A DNA stretch of 23,436 nt, from positions 1-23,436 of IMG/VR virus record IMGVR_UViG_3300045119_000115, one strand, 5' to 3'. The translations under genes were made by a program, and so were the position numbers. Origin of the DNA: a virus. The first letter of the stretch is position 1, and the number at the start of each line of letters is the position of its first letter. This document shows positions 1,881-22,663 of this stretch, in pieces. The notes beneath the pieces were generated by a model that saw nothing but the letters and a program-made list of their open reading frames with translations, did not search any database and was not told the DNA's origin.

Positions 1881-2714
1881 TTACACGTGTCCCCATCCAG
1901 CCGGCGCACGCTTTGATCCTGGAATGCTCTTGATCTTATCGACTGCTTTCGCAAGTTCAAGATCATCTGTCCTGTTCCAATCGACAAACGTCACATCCTT
2001 CTTCTTGCAAAATTCCTCGATGTACTTCCAATACTTTCGATCAGGATCGGAGTTTTGCTTCCCCCGACACTGCAAGATGTTTCCTTTATTCACGTAGTTC
2101 TTATCGGCCAACTCAATCGTCACATGCGGTTTGTTCTTCTGACCGCAATGTTGCATGAGAGTTCCCTCACGCCCACATTCCTTGGAACTTAACAACTGAA
2201 CCCAGTAAAAACCATCTGAAAAGCTGATATCTGCACGGTGAGACAAACGATCTTCGGCACCAACGTCCATCAAGTCCATGAGCTTTTCAAGACAAGATGA
2301 CAATCCTTCCTCAGGATCGGACGATAAAATTGAAAGGAACTGACCTCTCATCGCTGGCTTCCTCTTGAGGAATTCGGAGATTTCCCTTCCCGGACGAGAG
2401 ACAGCCCGTGGACCCAGGTATAGACCCTCTTCCCAAAAATCATCAAACAAGGTCCGCCAGACACTCAACGAGTGCGCGTCCTCATTTTGATCATCTGAGG
2501 ATTTTTCGAGTGAATCGTCGGGATGTCTTCTAGTATAAGATCGTATCAAGTTATCGATACTCTTCCTCGTGAAAATGTTCATGAGGATGTCGGCGTTCTT
2601 CCGATCCTTCCCATTCACGTACTCAGCAAACTTCGATGGCACCTTGTACTGGTTCACCAGAGTGGTGACGTTCACCTCTCGGATCACGAACACTGAGTCT
2701 AAACTCGGAATCAT
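1881..2714 (-). CDS. PcfJ-like domain protein of unknown function
   Basis: This is a 277-residue protein. The C-terminal half resembles PcfJ-type domains of mobile elements and phages: a DGFYWVQL strand (residues 167-174), a Cys/His motif TLMQHCG (185-191), a strand PHVTIEL (196-202), and ILQCRGKQNSDP (213-224) followed by KYWKYIEEF. In related phage proteins this reads roughly as M.HCG...V.TIE...I.Q.KG..N..P. The molecular role of the domain is not established. The N-terminal 160 residues are helical and unremarkable. The gene lies between a lipoprotein gene (one base upstream) and a neck gene, an odd place for a non-virion protein. It looks more A/T-rich than its neighbours, which may mean it was acquired separately. 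Confidence 0.6.
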   Translation of the reverse strand: MIPSLDSVFVIREVNVTTLVNQYKVPSKFAEYVNGKDRKNADILMNIFTRKSIDNLIRSYTRRHPDDSLEKSSDDQNEDAHSLSVWRTLFDDFWEEGLYLGPRAVSRPGREISEFLKRKPAMRGQFLSILSSDPEEGLSSCLEKLMDLMDVGAEDRLSHRADISFSDGFYWVQLLSSKECGREGTLMQHCGQKNKPHVTIELADKNYVNKGNILQCRGKQNSDPDRKYWKYIEEFCKKKDVTFVDWNRTDDLELAKAVDKIKSIPGSKRAPAGWGHV

Positions 2715-5615: not shown

Positions 5616-5632
5616 CTTCTTCTCCTGTTACT

Positions 5633-5950
5633 TTACTTCTGTGTTCCAGTCGTTCCCGGCTTGGGTCCACCCGGATCAAGCTCGGCAGGATCCTCACCCT
5701 CTTCCAGTTCGATGATCCTGACCATGCTCCTCAAGATCTTCAAGATCTCCTCCCTCCTCTGGGCCGCGAGCATGTCCTTCTGTCTGTTGTAGAGCTGCAT
5801 GATCTGCTCTGAGGCCGTGTGCAGGGTCTTCTCGAACTCCGATCTCAGTTTCTTCGAACCGTCAGGAAGTGTCGACGAGATCGTGAAGTCTCCCTTCGAC
5901 GGACCCGCCTCTCTCAACATCTTCGCAGCCAGCTCCCATGCGGTTCCCAT
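5633..5950 (-). CDS. Small helical hypothetical protein, first gene after terminator
   Basis: This is a 105-residue protein with no recognised family. The N-terminus MGTAWELAAKMLREAGPSK resembles that of the protein at 11100-11444 (MKSAWILAESMLEADSPK), so the two may share a targeting or core-binding helix. The middle (about residues 35-85) is a long charged helix that could form a coiled coil. The tail is Gly/Pro-rich and probably disordered. The ATG has a strong AAAGGAGAAC ribosome-binding site. It is the first gene downstream of the intrinsic terminator of the capsid gene, so its expression depends on read-through or on a promoter I could not identify in the short gap. Confidence 0.75.
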   Translation of the reverse strand: MGTAWELAAKMLREAGPSKGDFTISSTLPDGSKKLRSEFEKTLHTASEQIMQLYNRQKDMLAAQRREEILKILRSMVRIIELEEGEDPAELDPGGPKPGTTGTQK

Positions 5951-5981
5951 GCTCGTTCTCCTTTAATAGGACGTAGCAGCT

Positions 5982-6021
5982 CAAAAGAAAAAGGGGACCC
6001 AGCTGATCAGCTGGGTCCCCT
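5982..6021 (-). terminator. Intrinsic terminator after major capsid gene
   Basis: Positions 5992-6021 form a perfect 30-base inverted repeat (two 15-base arms centred between 6006 and 6007). As RNA this gives a GC-rich stem of about 13 pairs with a GATC loop. On the minus strand it is followed at once by TTTTTCTTTT (5991 down to 5984), the usual U-tract. It begins about 30 bases past the stop of the capsid gene, which fits a terminator for the head operon. It is the only strong terminator I found in the window. Confidence 0.9.
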
Positions 6022-6050
6022 CTCAGGATCTCTTCAGGACCCGGTCAGGA

Positions 6051-7742
6051 TCAGATGACGTTCATGTCCTGCACGGTGACGGTCCCGTAGAAGTCGCTCC
6101 TGACGAGCTGCGTCGCGTACCGGGTCATGACGCCCTTGCGAGGAGTGAAGTCCTCCGGAGCGTAGATGGTCGGGGTGACGATGAGCGGCACGTACGGGGC
6201 GTAGACGAAGCCGGTCTCGAGGAACGATCCGCCCTTGTACCCGACGAGGATGCGGTTCCTCGGGAAGTACGGGTCCTTGTAGACCGTGAAGCGGTTGTTC
6301 AGCGATCCCATCTTCTCGGTTCCGACGGAGAACATGGTCTCTTTCGGATCCATCGACAGGTTCGGCTTGTAGAGCACCGATGCCTCGAGGATGGTCGAGA
6401 CGTCCGGAGACGTGACAATCCAGTTCGCGGCACCGCGGAGCGTCTTGCGGTGGATGGTGTTAGCCACATCGATGATGGTCTCGATGAGGGTCTCGTACCA
6501 CTCGCGGACGGTACCGGTGAAGCTGGCACCTGAGGCAGTGTTGCCCGTGGTCTTGTCCACGAAGTTGCCCGGCTTGCGGCTCCAGTAGTAGTTGGCGCCG
6601 GTCGCATTGTAGAGCAGATCTCCGAGGATCTCCCGATCGATCTCGAGGGCGATCGCCTCCGAGAGCACCTGGGTCAGTTCGACCTCGGCGTCCAGGTTCT
6701 GGTAAGCGGCCAGGTCCTGGGCGAGCTCCGGGGTCCAGCGAGCCTTCAGCTTGCGGGTGTTGGCGGTGACCGCCACGCTCTGCAGCCTGAAGTCGATCTC
6801 TGGAATGACCGGCACGGGCGGCGAGCCCATGTCCGACTCCCACTCCGGGAGCACCAGGGTGCCCGAGGTTCCACCGCGCAGCGAGCTGGCGACGATGTAC
6901 GAGACCTTGATCGACTCGACTCCGACCGCGGCACCGTCGGTGTTGTCGACGATGAACTGCAGGTCAGTGCTGCCAGTCCTCCTAGTGTGACGACGGAGGA
7001 CGGTCAGACCACCGATCCGGACCGGAGTGCCGTCCGTGGTCGAGCTGTTCGAGGTCGAAGAGCCGGAGACCGGGACCCACTGCTTCAGGCCGCTCGTCGA
7101 AGAATCGGCACCAGAGACTGCTGCCGACAGCTGGGTGTAGGCCTGGGAAAGGACCAGCTTCTGCAGAGTACCGGCACCGATCGATCCAGAGATCTCCGGA
7201 TCCCAGTTGATGTCCTGGAGAGTCGGAGTCGACAGCGTCCCCGAGAATGTCGCGATCGACACCTTCTCTCGCTGTGAGAAGGAGGTTCCCAGGTTGTAGA
7301 GACCGTTCGTCGCCAAGTTCTCGACACCCGGCGCCGTCTGATCACCGAAGAGCGATCCGCCTGCCGCGAAGTCCTTGGCTCGGTTACCGGCCTTGACCGT
7401 GTCGAACCTGTAGTCGAGATAGAAGATGAGTCCCGAGGGGAGGCTCATCGGCTGGACCGAAACCAGCTCATTGGCGATCAGTCCGCCGAAGACCCGACGG
7501 ACGATCGGGAAGGCGACGTTCTGGAAACCGGCGAGGTCACCGGTGCTCGAGGCCTCCGTGAGCATCTGGGCCGCCTGGCTCTCCAGGAGCCGCGCCATGT
7601 TGGTGCGGGCCTGGTGCTTCGGCGAGTCCTTCAGTCCGTTGAGGAGTCCCGTCTTGTCCCACTTCTTGACCAGTCGAGCGCGGGCCGCACGCTCATCGTG
7701 CTGGGTGATGCCCTCGGTCAGCTGCTTCATGTCAAATCCCAT
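6051..7742 (-). CDS. Major capsid protein (gp23-like)
   Basis: This 563-residue protein is the main shell subunit of the head. Residues 60-110 (MLTEASSTGD, then PIVRRVFGGLIANELVSVQP and PSGLIFYLDYRF) align by eye with the T4 gp23 region FLTE/AEIGGD ... MVRRAIPNLIAFDICGVQPM. A second hallmark, ANTRKLKARWTPELAQDL, followed by LDAEVELTQVLSEAIALEIDREI, lies in the central part. Residues 1-63 form a likely prohead-cleaved N-terminus ending in L-T-E. It is slightly longer than T4 gp23 (521 residues), with a Ser/Thr/Gly-rich stretch near residues 200-310 that may be an inserted surface domain. AAGGAGAAC precedes the ATG. The gene follows the scaffold gene and ends before a strong terminator, which fits high expression. 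Confidence 0.95.
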   Translation of the reverse strand: MGFDMKQLTEGITQHDERAARARLVKKWDKTGLLNGLKDSPKHQARTNMARLLESQAAQMLTEASSTGDLAGFQNVAFPIVRRVFGGLIANELVSVQPMSLPSGLIFYLDYRFDTVKAGNRAKDFAAGGSLFGDQTAPGVENLATNGLYNLGTSFSQREKVSIATFSGTLSTPTLQDINWDPEISGSIGAGTLQKLVLSQAYTQLSAAVSGADSSTSGLKQWVPVSGSSTSNSSTTDGTPVRIGGLTVLRRHTRRTGSTDLQFIVDNTDGAAVGVESIKVSYIVASSLRGGTSGTLVLPEWESDMGSPPVPVIPEIDFRLQSVAVTANTRKLKARWTPELAQDLAAYQNLDAEVELTQVLSEAIALEIDREILGDLLYNATGANYYWSRKPGNFVDKTTGNTASGASFTGTVREWYETLIETIIDVANTIHRKTLRGAANWIVTSPDVSTILEASVLYKPNLSMDPKETMFSVGTEKMGSLNNRFTVYKDPYFPRNRILVGYKGGSFLETGFVYAPYVPLIVTPTIYAPEDFTPRKGVMTRYATQLVRSDFYGTVTVQDMNVI

Positions 7743-15341: not shown

Positions 15342-17009
15342 TCAACCTGTGCTCATGAGCCATGAGAGATCGAGAGTGATGTTCCCTGGAAGCTTGAGCT
15401 GATGATTCTGACGGGCGAGTGAATTGGCACCAGTCTTAGAGATGAACCTCGGATCTTTCGAGGCTCCCTCGATCTGAGTGTTGTCACGATGGACGATGCT
15501 TATTCCATCGATGATGTTCTTCTGTACATCGACGTTGGCCGTCCTCGGGATGAGGAACGTATCTTTGATCCATGCCGCGAGCGCGGTCATCATGACGAGA
15601 TCGTCGTTCCTTCCATTCATCGCAGCTGCACGACCTGAAGACCAGACGAATGTCTTGATCTCGTATAGGAACCTCTTCGAACGGATGTTCATGTTCCGAT
15701 TCCTGATGTATTCCTCGAGCTTCGCGATGATCAGTGGACGATTCTTCTGGTTCGTGGTGAATCCAGGAATGAGCTCAGAATCAAGTTCAGGCTTTCCCCA
15801 TGAAAGGTTGACAATCTCTCCGGGTTTCATGTCTCCACGACGAGAGTAGTACACTGCTTTGTACTCGTTGAGTCTGATGTGTTCAAGACATGTCATGCCG
15901 ATGTTGTTGTTTTCCACGACGACGATCGCATCATTGTATCTCTTTCCGAGATCGCAGATCACGTCAGCGAACTCCTCGGGCGGGATCTTCCCATAGTACT
16001 CAGCGACCTCGGACATGTCAGAGATACGAAACACTCCTGCTGCCGAGTTGTCAGAAGAGTCCCCACGTGCGACGTCTGCAGTCAATAAATATCTTTCGTC
16101 ACGCTCAGGTCGAAACCAGATGAACTCGTTCCTATCCCAATGCTCCCTGTAGGACGGATCGATGCATGATTCCTCGATCCACTTGATACCATCCGCAGCG
16201 ATGACCGTATCTCCAGAGGCATTGAAGTTGCACTCCAGTTCCTGGGCGATCTCTCTCGGACCGTAGTTCGAGCTCTTGATCTCTGCTCGGTACCAGGAGC
16301 TCGTCTTGAATCCCGGTCGTGCCTCATCATCCTCGAGATCTGAGATGTGCTCGGGATGGACCCACCACATGAGCTTCGAAAACTTGAACTCGTTCGTTCC
16401 AGCGACAGCCTCGGTGTAGATCTGGTGGAACTTGTTTCCGACGCCATTCGGTGTCGAGAGGACGACGATGCTTCCTCCCGCGTTGATCGTCGGAAAGAGA
16501 CCCGTCCAGAGCTCATCGAGGTTCTTGATGAACGCCGCCTCGTCGATGATGAGAAGTGAGAGAGCCTCTGAGCGACCCGCATCATCTGATGTCGCAATCG
16601 CCTTGATCTGAGAACCATTGCTCAATTCGATCGAAAGCTTATTGTCGGTGGTGATGTCGGCGAGCAGGAGCCACTTCGGTATCTTCTTGAGGGCCGTAGC
16701 AACCTTCTTGATGATGTTCTTAGCGGTCTCAGACTTCGTCGCCATGACGAGGATGTTTTTATCTCGATGAAAGAGCATCAACCAACAGGCATAGGCAGCC
16801 GTGATCTCTGAGATCCCCAGCTGCCGAGCTTTCAAGATGACATTGAACCTATTCTGCTGATATCCTCGGATCAGCTCTTCCTGATAGGTGAATGTCTGGA
16901 ATGGGATCAACCCCCGCTTGGGATGCTTGATCTTCACATATCTCTTGATGAAATAGATCGGATCGCGACCACAAAGGATGATCTCTTTCTTGAGATCATC
17001 CTTGATCAT
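15342..17009 (-). CDS. Terminase large subunit (gp17-like ATPase/nuclease)
   Basis: This is the 555-residue DNA-packaging motor. The N-terminal ATPase has an adenine-binding-like region (QTFTYQEELI), a divergent Walker A KARQLGIS (60-67), Walker B LLIIDEAAF (152-160, D156/E157) and the coupling motif STP (185-187). The C-terminal RNase H-type nuclease shows LTADVARGDSSDNSAAG (D312), VVVENNNIG (E366) and NDDLVMM (D469/D470), matching the acidic triad of T4 gp17. It is slightly shorter than T4 gp17 (610 residues). The ATG overlaps the stop of the upstream gene (ATGA), and the portal gene follows closely. All key residues appear intact, so it should be functional. Confidence 0.95.
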   Translation of the reverse strand: MIKDDLKKEIILCGRDPIYFIKRYVKIKHPKRGLIPFQTFTYQEELIRGYQQNRFNVILKARQLGISEITAAYACWLMLFHRDKNILVMATKSETAKNIIKKVATALKKIPKWLLLADITTDNKLSIELSNGSQIKAIATSDDAGRSEALSLLIIDEAAFIKNLDELWTGLFPTINAGGSIVVLSTPNGVGNKFHQIYTEAVAGTNEFKFSKLMWWVHPEHISDLEDDEARPGFKTSSWYRAEIKSSNYGPREIAQELECNFNASGDTVIAADGIKWIEESCIDPSYREHWDRNEFIWFRPERDERYLLTADVARGDSSDNSAAGVFRISDMSEVAEYYGKIPPEEFADVICDLGKRYNDAIVVVENNNIGMTCLEHIRLNEYKAVYYSRRGDMKPGEIVNLSWGKPELDSELIPGFTTNQKNRPLIIAKLEEYIRNRNMNIRSKRFLYEIKTFVWSSGRAAAMNGRNDDLVMMTALAAWIKDTFLIPRTANVDVQKNIIDGISIVHRDNTQIEGASKDPRFISKTGANSLARQNHQLKLPGNITLDLSWLMSTG

Positions 17010-18008: not shown

Positions 18009-21000
18009 TTATCCTCCGATCTCGACATGCGCATATCCCTCAGCATCTACAGTGATCTCGATCATGTTGTCAACAAGATCCTTCATGGTCTCAAGATGAC
18101 TGATGACGATCACGTGATCAAAGATCGTCCTCAGATAGTCGAACATCCTGTTCACATTCTCGAGGTTCTGAGAATCGAGTTTTCCGAAACCTTCATCGAT
18201 GATGAACATGTTCGACTTGGGAAGGTTCGAGATGTTCAGCAGGGCAGTCCGAATAGCGACAGACGCCAGCATCTTCTCGGCCCCGCTGCCGAGCTCAATG
18301 AGACGAGGTTTATACTCACCGTACTGGAGATAAATCCTGATCGATTGTTCATCTGCATCATGCTCTATCAAAACTCCGAACTCGGCAGTCCCCGTGAGGA
18401 TCTTATTGATCTCACTGTTGATCAATGGAAGGTTCTGAGTAAGGATCTGATACGCTATTCCATCCTTGCCCATCGCATCGATGTAATGCTCATAGGCAGT
18501 ACAGATGGCTCGAGACTCGACCAGCGATTGTGAACGCTCACAGGCAATATCTAGCATCCCCTGGTCTGATCCAATCTTCCTATCGATGTCAGAGATGGAC
18601 GACTGGATCTCGTCCGCTTCTTTTTCTAGAGATTTTTGACATCGACTGACGTCAGACAGCTGTCTGTCTATCTCTAGATTTTTCAAAATGTCTTCCTTCG
18701 ACTTCTCAAGACGTTGCATCATCGATCGAAGAGAATCTGACTCGACAATGAGAGCATCGATCTTGAGTTTCAGATTCTCTTTCTGCAGACGAGTCGTCGC
18801 TCGTTTTTCCAGAAGAGAAGCCTTCCTGCCAGTGGACTCCTCGTATTCCCTCATCTTATCTCTGTGAACGGCCAGAGATGACGCATCTGCCTGCAGTGAA
18901 GTCGATTGAGAATTGAGCTCGTCAATCTTTGACCGAAGACTTTCAGCAGAAGACTTTGCAGAGAACGCATTCACGAGAAATCTGCACGTCGGAAATTGAT
19001 CCCCGCACGGAACGACTTTCAAGAGAGAGATCTCTCTCTCTCCATCAGACTGACTCTTCATCAATCGTTCGACATTTTTCGAATTCTCAATAAGAGATAA
19101 CTCAATCTTTTCCAATGAATCGATCTGATCGGTATGAAAGACAACATCGAATGATTTCTGAAACTCTTCGATCAAATCGATGTCAGTTAAAACCTCTCGA
19201 AGAAGATCATCTTTCTCAGACAAGGTGACTTTGAGACGATCGATCTCTCTCTCGCACTTCGAAATGCGATCAGAGACACTGTCAGACATTTCGATCTTAT
19301 CTACTGGAATCTTCCTCGTGGCAAGTCTTAACGACTCTTCCTGGAGCGATGTGATCTTTGCTCGAGACGAGACCAGATCATCTTTTAGTGAATTCAATTT
19401 TTCAGCGTGAGAGTCGATCGACTGTCTCAACGAAGAGATCTTAGAATCGATATCTGACTCTTCAAGCTCATGAAGACGGTTCCAATGCTCTTTGGCGTCT
19501 TCTTTGGCCAAGATGCACTTCTGTTCGAAGATGTCCAGATCAAGAAACCTGTATAAAATCTCTTTCCTTCGAGTCTCCTTACAGGAAATGATGTCGAGCG
19601 GATTCCACTGGGCGCTCAATCCGGTCAACATGAAATCCTCAAAGGAACCCACTCGTAGACGCAAGCTCCTCTCTGTCTCAGGACGAGACACTCCCAGCAG
19701 CGGTTCACGGGATCCTGCCAGATCGACCTTGAAAAATCCGCAGCTGGTCTTTCCCCACTCCTTGGCCTCTCCCTTTCGATGTCCGTATTTAATCCGTTCT
19801 ATACATCTCTCGACAGAGTAATCCTGACCGTTCGCGGTGAAGTCTGCCACCATCACAGACGATTCCTTATTGTCGTTGATCAACGAGATGTTCTTGCTGA
19901 CCCCACGGGTCGTAGAGTCAAAGAGAGTCTCCAGCATCACATCGATGAGGTTTGATTTTCCTGATGCGTTCGGTGCAAATATTCCCGTGAGTCCTCCGAG
20001 TGAGGAAAAATCGATGTAATTGTTTTCTCCGTAATTGAACAGATTGCTCCACCCGATCTTGTTGATCTGCCAGGAGACATTTCGAGATACATCATCGACC
20101 TGATCGACATGTATCTGATATTTCCTATTCAGATCAAAGATCCTGTCCATGACGACAATGGGAAGGTTCTTCTCAGAGAGATACTTCTTCAGCAGTCTCT
20201 CTTGGACAGAGATGTGCCTGAGATTGTCAAAGTCAGAATGAGCGATCGGAGACAACTGGGCGTGTCCCTTGCTCAAGCTCACAGGAGCGAGCGTGATGAC
20301 ATCGTACGGTTGAAATTTCTGCTTGATCGACTTTTCGAGCGCTTTCTGTTCGACAAGAGTCAGAGATCTCGGAGGACTCACCCTGATCCTTGAGTCAGGC
20401 TCAATGATAAGATCGGGGATAGAAAGATCCTCTCCCACCTTGACAGTATGAAATTTCCTGCTTCCGTGAAGCATCACGGATGAGACAGTGTGTTTCTTCT
20501 TTCCTTGGATATCCCAGAGAAGAAATCCCTTGTCTATCTCTTCTCCAAAGTTCTGCTGGATCAGGGACCCAGCATATGCGATTGTCCTATCTCTGAAGAA
20601 CTGTTGCTTGTGAATGTCTCCAAGCATGGCATAGTCTAGTCCGTCGAAGATGGAGACGTCATGCTCAGTGTTGTTCATCCTCCAATTCGAATCGGTCACG
20701 CAAGTGGAGATTGAACCGTGAAAGAGACCGATGTTGATGTCGGAAGAATCTTTCCACTGCAAGGGAGTCGGATAGTTTTCGACATCGGCCAGAGAGAATA
20801 CCCAGAGCGTGACTCCTAGATCGAATATCTTGACAGGTCCTGACTTCTTGTGAAGGTGTACACGAGAATCCCTGATGGAATCGACGATGGGAGTGATGGC
20901 ATCCTGCCTATCGAGATTCATCAAATTCAGGTCGTGATTTCCGAGGATGATGTGATATCCAGCGTATTCGATAACTCTTCTGATGTGCTCAGATTCCATC

Positions 21001-21173
21001 TCAACGAACTCTGGAGAGATGTTCACTTTCGTGTGTGCCGAGTCACCAGTGTTGATGATCAGGTCAGGCTTGATCTCATCAAGTTTCCTGTAGAGGTTTT
21101 CAAAGACGCGCCTGTAATCAGCGTGGTACTTGAGATTCCTCAAGTGGACATCGGATATGTGCACGATCTTCAA
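18009..21173 (-). CDS. Fused Mre11/SbcD nuclease - Rad50/SbcC ATPase (gp47-gp46 fusion)
   Basis: This is a single protein of about 1054 residues. The N-terminal part is a calcineurin-type nuclease: MKIVHISDVH (D8, H10), INTGD (D44), LGNHD (77-81), FHG (H152) and GDIH (185-188). From about residue 375 comes an SMC-type ATPase: Walker A FAPNASGKSN (398-407), coiled coils on both sides of a two-cysteine hook C-x6-C (723 and 730), signature LGSGAEK (961-967), Walker B MFIIDEGFG (D993/E994) and H-loop VISHLE. In T4 these are separate genes 47 and 46, which resect DNA ends for recombination. I chose TTG at 21171-21173 because AGAGG lies seven bases upstream and it gives the usual MKIVHISD start. 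GTG at 21179 or 21197 is possible. Confidence 0.93.
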   Translation of the reverse strand: MKIVHISDVHLRNLKYHADYRRVFENLYRKLDEIKPDLIINTGDSAHTKVNISPEFVEMESEHIRRVIEYAGYHIILGNHDLNLMNLDRQDAITPIVDSIRDSRVHLHKKSGPVKIFDLGVTLWVFSLADVENYPTPLQWKDSSDINIGLFHGSISTCVTDSNWRMNNTEHDVSIFDGLDYAMLGDIHKQQFFRDRTIAYAGSLIQQNFGEEIDKGFLLWDIQGKKKHTVSSVMLHGSRKFHTVKVGEDLSIPDLIIEPDSRIRVSPPRSLTLVEQKALEKSIKQKFQPYDVITLAPVSLSKGHAQLSPIAHSDFDNLRHISVQERLLKKYLSEKNLPIVVMDRIFDLNRKYQIHVDQVDDVSRNVSWQINKIGWSNLFNYGENNYIDFSSLGGLTGIFAPNASGKSNLIDVMLETLFDSTTRGVSKNISLINDNKESSVMVADFTANGQDYSVERCIERIKYGHRKGEAKEWGKTSCGFFKVDLAGSREPLLGVSRPETERSLRLRVGSFEDFMLTGLSAQWNPLDIISCKETRRKEILYRFLDLDIFEQKCILAKEDAKEHWNRLHELEESDIDSKISSLRQSIDSHAEKLNSLKDDLVSSRAKITSLQEESLRLATRKIPVDKIEMSDSVSDRISKCEREIDRLKVTLSEKDDLLREVLTDIDLIEEFQKSFDVVFHTDQIDSLEKIELSLIENSKNVERLMKSQSDGEREISLLKVVPCGDQFPTCRFLVNAFSAKSSAESLRSKIDELNSQSTSLQADASSLAVHRDKMREYEESTGRKASLLEKRATTRLQKENLKLKIDALIVESDSLRSMMQRLEKSKEDILKNLEIDRQLSDVSRCQKSLEKEADEIQSSISDIDRKIGSDQGMLDIACERSQSLVESRAICTAYEHYIDAMGKDGIAYQILTQNLPLINSEINKILTGTAEFGVLIEHDADEQSIRIYLQYGEYKPRLIELGSGAEKMLASVAIRTALLNISNLPKSNMFIIDEGFGKLDSQNLENVNRMFDYLRTIFDHVIVISHLETMKDLVDNMIEITVDAEGYAHVEIGG

Positions 21174-21175
21174 GT

Positions 21176-22099
21176 TCACACCTCTTTCAGACGACACCTG
21201 ATCAAGTCTAGATCAGAACCGATCGCTGTCGCAGACTTCTTGGCTCGGATGAACTCTTCGCGATCCATCTCGGCGACATCCCTACGTGTGCCCAGGTCTA
21301 TGTAATAACAGTTCACTCCGAACATGAGGAACTTCTTGATGATCCTCAGCTGCTTCTCAAAAGCGTCCGAGTCCATCGCGAAGAACGTGTCACAGTCATG
21401 CTTGACGATCTTCGAAAATAAACGTGAGCCCTCATTCAAGATCGAACCCTGCAACGGGATTCCGTTGTGATCGATCTTGACAAGATCAAAAAATCCCTCG
21501 GTGATCGTGACGGGCCTCGACCAGTCCACCATGTACTCATCGAAGATGATGTCTTTACAAAAATTTCCATGCATGTACCTGTGTCTCATGCTCGGATAAA
21601 ATGAGCGTCCCGTGAAAAAATTCAACTCTCCAAACTCATCGAATGACGGGATGATGATCCGATATCGATAGTCTCCATCCTCACAATACCCAAGCTTCCA
21701 ATGTACGATGTCATCGGAGCTCACTCCCCTGCTTGACAGGTACTCCATGGCATTGTGGTAATAGGGTGTCCCCCAATCACTCGTGAGTGACCTGAACTCC
21801 TTTGGTAGGATGGGCTCATCATACTTTTTCTCAGGTATCCTCGTCTCACTCGATCCTGACAGCTTCGACTTGTACTCACGAGATATCTCGGTCGGTCCTT
21901 TCAGCTCCAATATCGGAAGAAGACTCCTATCCTTCCAGTCACAGAACCAGCAGTGCATGTTGTCCGTCTTGACATTCACACTCAACTTTGGTTTATGGTG
22001 CTTGTGACGAGGACAGAAGAAAACAAGTTCGTCACCTTTCCTGATCTCTTCCCTGCCGAGAATCGATCGAAGGACCCTTATCTTCTCAGTCAGATCCAC
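21176..22099 (-). CDS. DNA primase (DnaG/gp61-type, zinc finger plus TOPRIM)
   Basis: This 307-residue primase makes RNA primers for lagging-strand synthesis. The N-terminal zinc-binding domain has C29-x2-H32 (FCPRHKHHKP) and C50-x2-C53 (MHCWFCDW). The middle matches the DnaG core (SSRGVSSDDIVHWKLGYCED, then YRIIIPSFDEFGELNFFTGR). The TOPRIM metal residues are E201 in VTITEGFFDLV and D243/D245 in FFAMDSDAF. It starts with GTG at 22097-22099 three bases after the RuvC-like stop, with no obvious ribosome-binding site. Its end overlaps the upstream start options of the Mre11-Rad50 gene. T4 gp61 is 342 residues, so the length is reasonable. No helicase partner (gp41-like) lies in the window. Confidence 0.9.
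   Translation of the reverse strand: MDLTEKIRVLRSILGREEIRKGDELVFFCPRHKHHKPKLSVNVKTDNMHCWFCDWKDRSLLPILELKGPTEISREYKSKLSGSSETRIPEKKYDEPILPKEFRSLTSDWGTPYYHNAMEYLSSRGVSSDDIVHWKLGYCEDGDYRYRIIIPSFDEFGELNFFTGRSFYPSMRHRYMHGNFCKDIIFDEYMVDWSRPVTITEGFFDLVKIDHNGIPLQGSILNEGSRLFSKIVKHDCDTFFAMDSDAFEKQLRIIKKFLMFGVNCYYIDLGTRRDVAEMDREEFIRAKKSATAIGSDLDLIRCRLKEV
21181..21185 (-). promoter_or_regulatory. Ribosome-binding site deciding the start of the Mre11-Rad50 fusion
   Basis: The minus strand carries AGAGG here, within the last codons of the primase gene. It is seven bases ahead of the TTG at 21171-21173 and almost touches the GTG at 21179, so spacing favours the TTG. That start gives the N-terminus MKIVHISD, usual for this nuclease family. 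Confidence 0.5.
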
Positions 22100-22102
22100 C
22101 GA

Positions 22103-22663
22103 TTATAACTTCGACATTCCTGCAAGAGCGATGATGTACGCGTCAGCCTGATCATAGCACCACGGCTGATCTTTGCCGTTCTTGTTCAGGAATGGAGCGA
22201 ATCCTTTCTCTCTGGTCCTGACAAAGTCCAGAGTCAATTGCTTCTTCTGATCGGAACCTTTCGGAATTACGAGTCCGAGTCTCTTCATCGCGGCCTTCAC
22301 TGTGCTGGGATGCATATGGGAGATCTTCCCGTGTGCCGCATCTCCTCCCATGCACTCTCTCCAGATCATCCAAGAGACCAGAGCGTTGAAGGCGGTCAGC
22401 TTAAGCAATGTCTCCTTGCTCGTACGACCGAAACTGAAGCTTTTAAGCCTGTCTTCGACAAAGTGATGTTGGACCTTCGGTTTGGACGTTAGCTCAAAAT
22501 CATCGTTCACTCTCTTGACGAACTTCAGAGCGACGTCCGCCTTGGTGATCAGGTCGATCTTGAACTTCCTCAAGTCACAATATCTTGACTCGATGAAGAT
22601 TCCAGAAGAATCGAAAGCTGCAAATCCGATGATACTAGTGCTGATATCCCACCCGAATTTCAC
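22103..22663 (-). CDS. RuvC-like Holliday junction resolvase / RNase H-fold nuclease
   Basis: This 186-residue nuclease probably cuts branched DNA during replication and before packaging. It shows the RuvC layout: D6 in FGWDISTSIIGFAAFD, E70 in HHFVEDRL, and D171/D174 in CYDQADAYIIALAG, the four acidic residues of a two-metal RNase H-fold active site. The region KVQHHFVEDRLKSFSFGRTS, followed by a helix with LLKLTAFNALVSW, is typical of phage RuvC-like proteins. It begins with GTG at 22661-22663 and has no clear ribosome-binding site. The T4 equivalent task is done by the unrelated endonuclease VII (gp49), of which I see no copy here. Confidence 0.85.
   Translation of the reverse strand: MKFGWDISTSIIGFAAFDSSGIFIESRYCDLRKFKIDLITKADVALKFVKRVNDDFELTSKPKVQHHFVEDRLKSFSFGRTSKETLLKLTAFNALVSWMIWRECMGGDAAHGKISHMHPSTVKAAMKRLGLVIPKGSDQKKQLTLDFVRTREKGFAPFLNKNGKDQPWCYDQADAYIIALAGMSKL

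Follow-up and report, generated by a model that had tools for sequence, protein, structure and literature searches.

The window analysed here, a linear virus fragment of 23,436 bases taken at its whole length, carries on its minus strand a gene whose product is very probably a phage single-chain Mre11-Rad50 (SbcD-SbcC, gp47-gp46) of the R555 type, with a role in DNA end processing and tethering during replication and recombination like that of gp46/gp47. The fusion itself is not new: this architecture was first reported in 2011, and it is frequent among uncultivated phages. It was described for e.g., Mimivirus R555, Bacillus phage 0305phi8-36, plasmids, bacteria and eukaryotes (Yoshida, Claverie and Ogata, PMC3175470), and the same study concluded from short metagenome reads that the fused form is abundant in aquatic phages and lies near primases, while it could confirm the fusion in just a few long metagenome sequences (PMC3175470). 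In a limited literature search, we found no later paper extending single-chain Mre11/Rad50 to cultured phages. Full-length genes, their neighbourhoods and an isolated phage now stand behind this short-read inference of 2011 (PMC3175470), and the interest of the present gene lies mainly in its full-length phage context and in an apparently exchangeable hook. The gene, the parts of its product and its neighbours are as follows:

18009..21173, minus strand: complete gene of the Mre11-Rad50 (SbcD-SbcC) fusion, 1054 codons and a stop, likely TTG start, alternative GTG at 21197
20469..21173, minus strand: Mre11/SbcD phosphoesterase core, residues 1-235 (Pfam PF00149, invariant or nearly invariant columns, model, Foldseek)
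20286..20468, minus strand: capping domain, residues 236-296 (model; Foldseek to SbcD 7dog)
20097..20285, minus strand: flexible stretch (residues 297-320) and two-helix Rad50-binding (HLH) domain (residues 321-359) (model)
20076..20096, minus strand: fusion join, residues 360-366 (model; codon-position substitution pattern like that of the flanking domains)
19536..20075, minus strand: Rad50/SbcC ATPase lobe I, residues 367-546 (Pfam AAA_23, invariant columns, model)
19017..19535, minus strand: ascending coiled coil, residues 547-719 (model helices)
18984..19016, minus strand: coiled-coil apex (hook), residues 720-730, PCGDQFPTC (sequence and model)
18471..18983, minus strand: descending coiled coil, residues 731-901 (model)
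18012..18470, minus strand: Rad50/SbcC ATPase lobe II, residues 902-1054 (PHROG 77, invariant columns, weak Pfam)
21176..22099, minus strand: DnaG-like primase, directly upstream of the fused gene (PHROG 47, E 7e-34)
22103..22663, minus strand: conserved gene upstream of the primase, without Pfam or PHROG match, homologues in 50 loci
15342..17009, minus strand: T4-type large terminase, downstream neighbour (Pfam and PHROG)

The initial annotation had placed a Mre11-Rad50 frame at 18009-21173 without naming a strand; the frame is real and lies on the minus strand, where it runs stop-free from 21173 to 18009 over 1054 codons (1062 if counted from an upstream GTG). A plus-strand reading of the same interval was ruled out by the many stops there. 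The likely start is the TTG at 21173, which is preceded by the Shine-Dalgarno-like AAAGAGGTG, lies 2 bases past the primase stop and corresponds to about the residue at which the homologues begin. The in-frame GTG at 21197, chosen in the mechanical list of open reading frames, is possible, but the TTG has the better ribosome-binding context and the better agreement with the homologues.

That a Mre11 nuclease and a Rad50 ATPase share one chain, as initially proposed, is borne out by the uninterrupted frame together with domain, structure and model matches. Pfam recognised Metallophos (PF00149) at residues 9-196 (E 5e-10) and AAA_23 at residues 384-621 (E 4e-7), PHROG 77 ("SbcC-like") matched residues 336-1054 (E 1e-44), and comparison with PDB sequences returned Rad50 and Mre11/SbcD chains, while the SMC_N and SbcC_Walker_B matches on lobe II were weak and below the cut-off. 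An AlphaFold model of the single chain, built from a 61-sequence input, reached a pLDDT of 84 and a pTM of only 0.50, for which reason the relative placement of the domains in it should be regarded as not settled. A Foldseek comparison paired the N-terminal part of the model with the solved Mre11/SbcD structure 7dog, comprising nuclease plus capping domain (TM normalised by the length of the target, 0.69), and the C-terminal part with the solved Rad50 structure 5dny (TM 0.70–0.71); the domain names used above were assigned by comparison with known Mre11-Rad50 structures. The ATPase is complete and contains coiled coils, again as proposed: lobe I provides Walker A (N402, G405, K406) and the Q-loop (Q522), lobe II the signature SGAE (963-966), Walker B (D993, E994), the D-loop (L999, D1000) and the H-loop (H1026), with the coiled coil between them, in agreement with the invariant columns, the model and the PDB matches. 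Over the 61 aligned sequences, all these motifs vary little or not at all. Between the two enzymes, the model shows a poorly ordered stretch (pLDDT <50 at residues 298-313), the two HLH helices (321-335 and 339-359) and a join of about seven residues (360-366) that is neither helix nor strand. The junction, which had been put near residue 375 and base 20060, thus exists but lies slightly upstream, at bases 20076-20096.

The minus strand of the window also encodes T4-type head and packaging proteins, namely the major capsid protein gp23, a prohead protease, the portal gp20 and the large terminase, and the fused gene sits between terminase and DnaG-like primase. The T4-type large terminase downstream places it in a T4-like phage. 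Among homologues at 89 loci, the primase was found upstream of the fused gene at 72, the terminase at 68, the portal at 50 and the counterpart of 22103-22663, a conserved gene that by eye appears RuvC/RNase H-like, likewise at 50, giving a recurring order of RuvC-like gene, primase, fused enzyme, terminase and portal. The conserved position of the primase agrees with the phage primases reported beside R555-like genes in marine metagenomes (PMC3175470). Elsewhere in the window (1881-2714), a gene situated among those for virion proteins encodes a product with weak similarity to PcfJ, below the Pfam cut-off.

The relatives were collected from public virus contigs, where more than 570 matches were confirmed and the best 80 kept; altogether, 178 virus loci were examined, some of which are overlapping fetches of one contig, and 146 distinct full-length fused proteins were recovered, including a few from phage and genome collections. 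Of the 178 loci, 171 possess the nuclease part together with the two ATPase lobes, and in 170 of these 171 all three lie in one frame, with Walker A at a nearly constant distance from the start throughout the fused homologues. The same fusion occurs in an isolated phage, Microcystis phage Mel-JY01 (WWT39521, 1066 aa), and in a phage genome of 735 kb. Single-chain homologues with both domains hence exist in abundance, and the finding named beforehand as a refutation, halves that are always separate genes, was not encountered. Single-chain Mre11-Rad50 is no rarity and belongs to the regular equipment of a large lineage of T4-like phages. The one complete locus lacking a single open frame (L147, 4001-7132) keeps its three parts in a shared reading frame, and the break is probably an in-frame stop or a sequencing error.

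An assembly or frameshift artefact, in which adjacent sbcD and sbcC genes were joined through a lost stop, deserved consideration, as the two genes of split phage relatives lie near each other in the same order, so that one error could mimic a fusion. However, 170 of 171 viral loci and the isolated phage are fused with the join at the same place, and across the join it is the third codon position that differs most (0.60–0.68, vs. 0.20–0.39 at positions 1 and 2), a pattern identical to that in the flanking domains. Since the join evolves as coding sequence and independent homologues are fused, an assembly error is excluded even without reads, and the chance of such an artefact is practically negligible. 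In other phages the two genes are separate and follow the same order, plausibly the precursor arrangement of the fusion. In a tree of fused and split phage pairs, the split pairs fell on one side with a support of 99, but on very long branches, and we therefore make no claim of a single fusion event.

Candidate relatives on plasmids and in cellular genomes did not hold up. The plasmid matches listed were short metallophosphatase stretches, none of them covering 80% of the protein. Fused copies in cells were likewise rejected: the strongest genome matches are metagenome bins, nearly all with a phage primase homologue adjoining and several also with phage terminase or portal genes, and were for this reason read as phage pieces, while the two weakest genome matches extend over no more than a short segment of the nuclease. 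Contigs with phage primase and fused gene occurred e.g., in metagenome-assembled genomes assigned to Acidiferrobacteraceae, Flavobacteriales, Methylococcaceae, Nitrosopelagicus, Chloroflexi and others (L094-L104), and these are most likely phage contigs binned with cells. In a chromosome labelled "candidate division WOR-3" (L097, CP070664.1), a phage piece holding primase and fused gene is linked to bacterial sequence via a run of N (at about 6900-7050 of L097), so that in this metagenome-derived chromosome the fused gene is apparently an artefact of scaffolding.

Besides the reality of the fusion, the state of its nuclease half had to be considered. The metal ligands are D8, H10, D44, N79, H80, H152, D186 and H188, seven of which are canonical for Mre11, whereas D186 replaces the first His of motif V (GDIH instead of GHxH). 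The initial statement that all five metal-binding motifs are present was consequently right for seven of the eight ligands and slightly overstated for motif V, in which the change runs across the family. It could be argued that the nuclease is dead or altered and that the protein mainly serves as an ATP-driven DNA tether or clamp, given that a GDIH-type motif with Asp for the first His occurs in 80 of the 81 relatives checked and that Mimivirus R555 has the same Asp at the position of Pyrococcus Mre11 His206 (PMC3175470). Asp is, however, a normal metal ligand, the 61-sequence alignment shows little or no variation at the other metal ligands, and the split SbcD of Vibrio phage D239 has a GD as well (AGDLH). 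Conservation across such divergence suggests an active site, and we regard loss of the nuclease as improbable. Equally doubtful is a specialised role apart from replication, for instance in counter-defence or in the breakdown of DNA from the host or a rival. Such a role would be compatible with the cleavage of hairpins and blocked ends by SbcCD-type enzymes in a wide range of settings, but the constant primase and the conserved upstream gene fit a replication-recombination block, and no defence gene was recognised beside the fused gene.

In a homologous fused gene of a 484-kb phage (LR756508.1; positions 5620-6640 of locus L007), an insertion of about 1 kb lies just past motif V and holds an endonuclease-like reading frame with a TnsA-like N domain and zinc-ribbon-like cysteines. 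It is probably a mobile intron or a similar element within the region of the active site; an Rfam search of this insertion for group I or II introns returned nothing convincing.

For the phage end-processing enzyme that we favour, we infer the dimeric state, the activity and the role in replication, and no biochemistry was found for the fused family. Two chains would pair as in M2R2, via their Mre11 domains, the Rad50 heads sandwiching ATP and the tips of the arms. Binding of ATP would close the clamp on a DNA end, hydrolysis would expose this end to the Mn-dependent nuclease, and the processed ends could then serve the repair of the phage genome or its recombination-dependent replication, in the manner of T4 gp46/gp47. 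The seven-residue join would tether the Mre11 HLH domain beside the root of the Rad50 coil. In two-chain complexes, the HLH domain sits on this root about 28 Å from the Rad50 N-terminus, so that a short linker suffices (PMC3175470). As the HLH domain is already beside the coil root there, the fusion preserves the canonical geometry and mainly guarantees co-synthesis while giving a short tether; a fixation of the stoichiometry at 1:1, as had been suggested, is of little consequence, given the 1:1 ratio that M2R2 already has. A chain of 1054 residues, in which both partners always come together, lends itself to structural studies of Mre11-Rad50.

Compared with the published description of R555, the protein shares the order of N-terminal Mre11 and C-terminal Rad50, the Asp at the position of Pyrococcus His206, a short linker past the HLH domain, the occurrence in aquatic viruses and the adjoining primase. 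R555, however, has 1351 aa and a cell-like arm length, and a linker of 9–12 residues is expected for this type (PMC3175470) vs. seven here; capping domain, HLH domain and short linker are all present. T4 gp47/gp46 and the pairs of Kyanoviridae, Herelleviridae, Vibrio phage D239 and Moorella phage MTATph1 comprise the same two enzymes in the same order, but as two separate genes, whereas the window encodes them in a single frame. Most split phage pairs examined have C-X2-C hooks and a GHxH motif V, with the C-X7-C of Moorella SbcC and the GD of D239 SbcD as exceptions. Fold and catalytic motifs of both halves are also shared with E. coli SbcCD and archaeal Mre11-Rad50, which differ from the fused protein in having two chains, a canonical motif V and a CXXC hook. 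The fused protein of phage Mel-JY01 is divergent (28.6% identical over 98% of the query) and has a primase-like gene upstream and a C-X2-C tip (CKHC); its annotation, "AAA domain containing protein", omits the nuclease half.

Rad50 hooks are described as CXXC (PMC9569753; PMC6969161). The apex of the present protein lacks this canonical zinc hook and has its cysteines, C723 and C730, in a C-X6-C spacing (PCGDQFPTC); the assignment as ATPase rests on the other features, and we class the protein as an Mre11/Rad50 fusion whose hook is non-canonical. Among the 146 full-length fused proteins, 102 (this one included) have C-X6/7-C, 42 have C-X2-C and two no Cys pair. The extended spacing is not unique to fusions, as shown by the split C-X7-C SbcC of Moorella phage MTATph1. 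Zinc would presumably be bound at the long-form tip as well.

We lean towards the view that the hook is an exchangeable cassette, the types of which have been swapped repeatedly by recombination in mid-gene, and such swaps may alter which chains pair at the tip. On the family tree, hook type requires nine changes, at least eight of which are forced by well-supported branches, and apex identity is lower in pairs with different hooks than in pairs with the same hook at every level of head identity (medians 0.20–0.29 vs. 0.47–0.82). As the coil is variable anyway, fast divergence and exchange look alike in most pairs, and L030 and L075 appear to be the clearest case of exchange. These two share 97% of their head residues. 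Compared in 180-base windows, their genes are 88% identical (SD 2.9%) away from the apex region but only 50% identical in a stretch of about 180 bases at the apex itself, and the left edge of this drop is sharp. The heads of L030 are nearest to L075, but its apex is nearest to L112 (apex 61%, heads 78%), and the apex of L075 is nearest to L110.

An exchangeable arm tip was not found described in the literature; the hook-hinge swap engineered in yeast Rad50 (PMC6969161) would have its natural counterpart here. If true, hook swaps could prevent or permit the formation of mixed dimers with co-infecting relatives, and exchange between near-identical proteins would offer natural chimaeras for studying hook function and pairing specificity. 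A second contig, L109, matches L030 without a difference across 7,195 bases and so confirms its sequence, and the same pattern recurs on a broader scale between L028 and each of L050, L123 and L124 (heads 0.96–0.97, apex 0.29).
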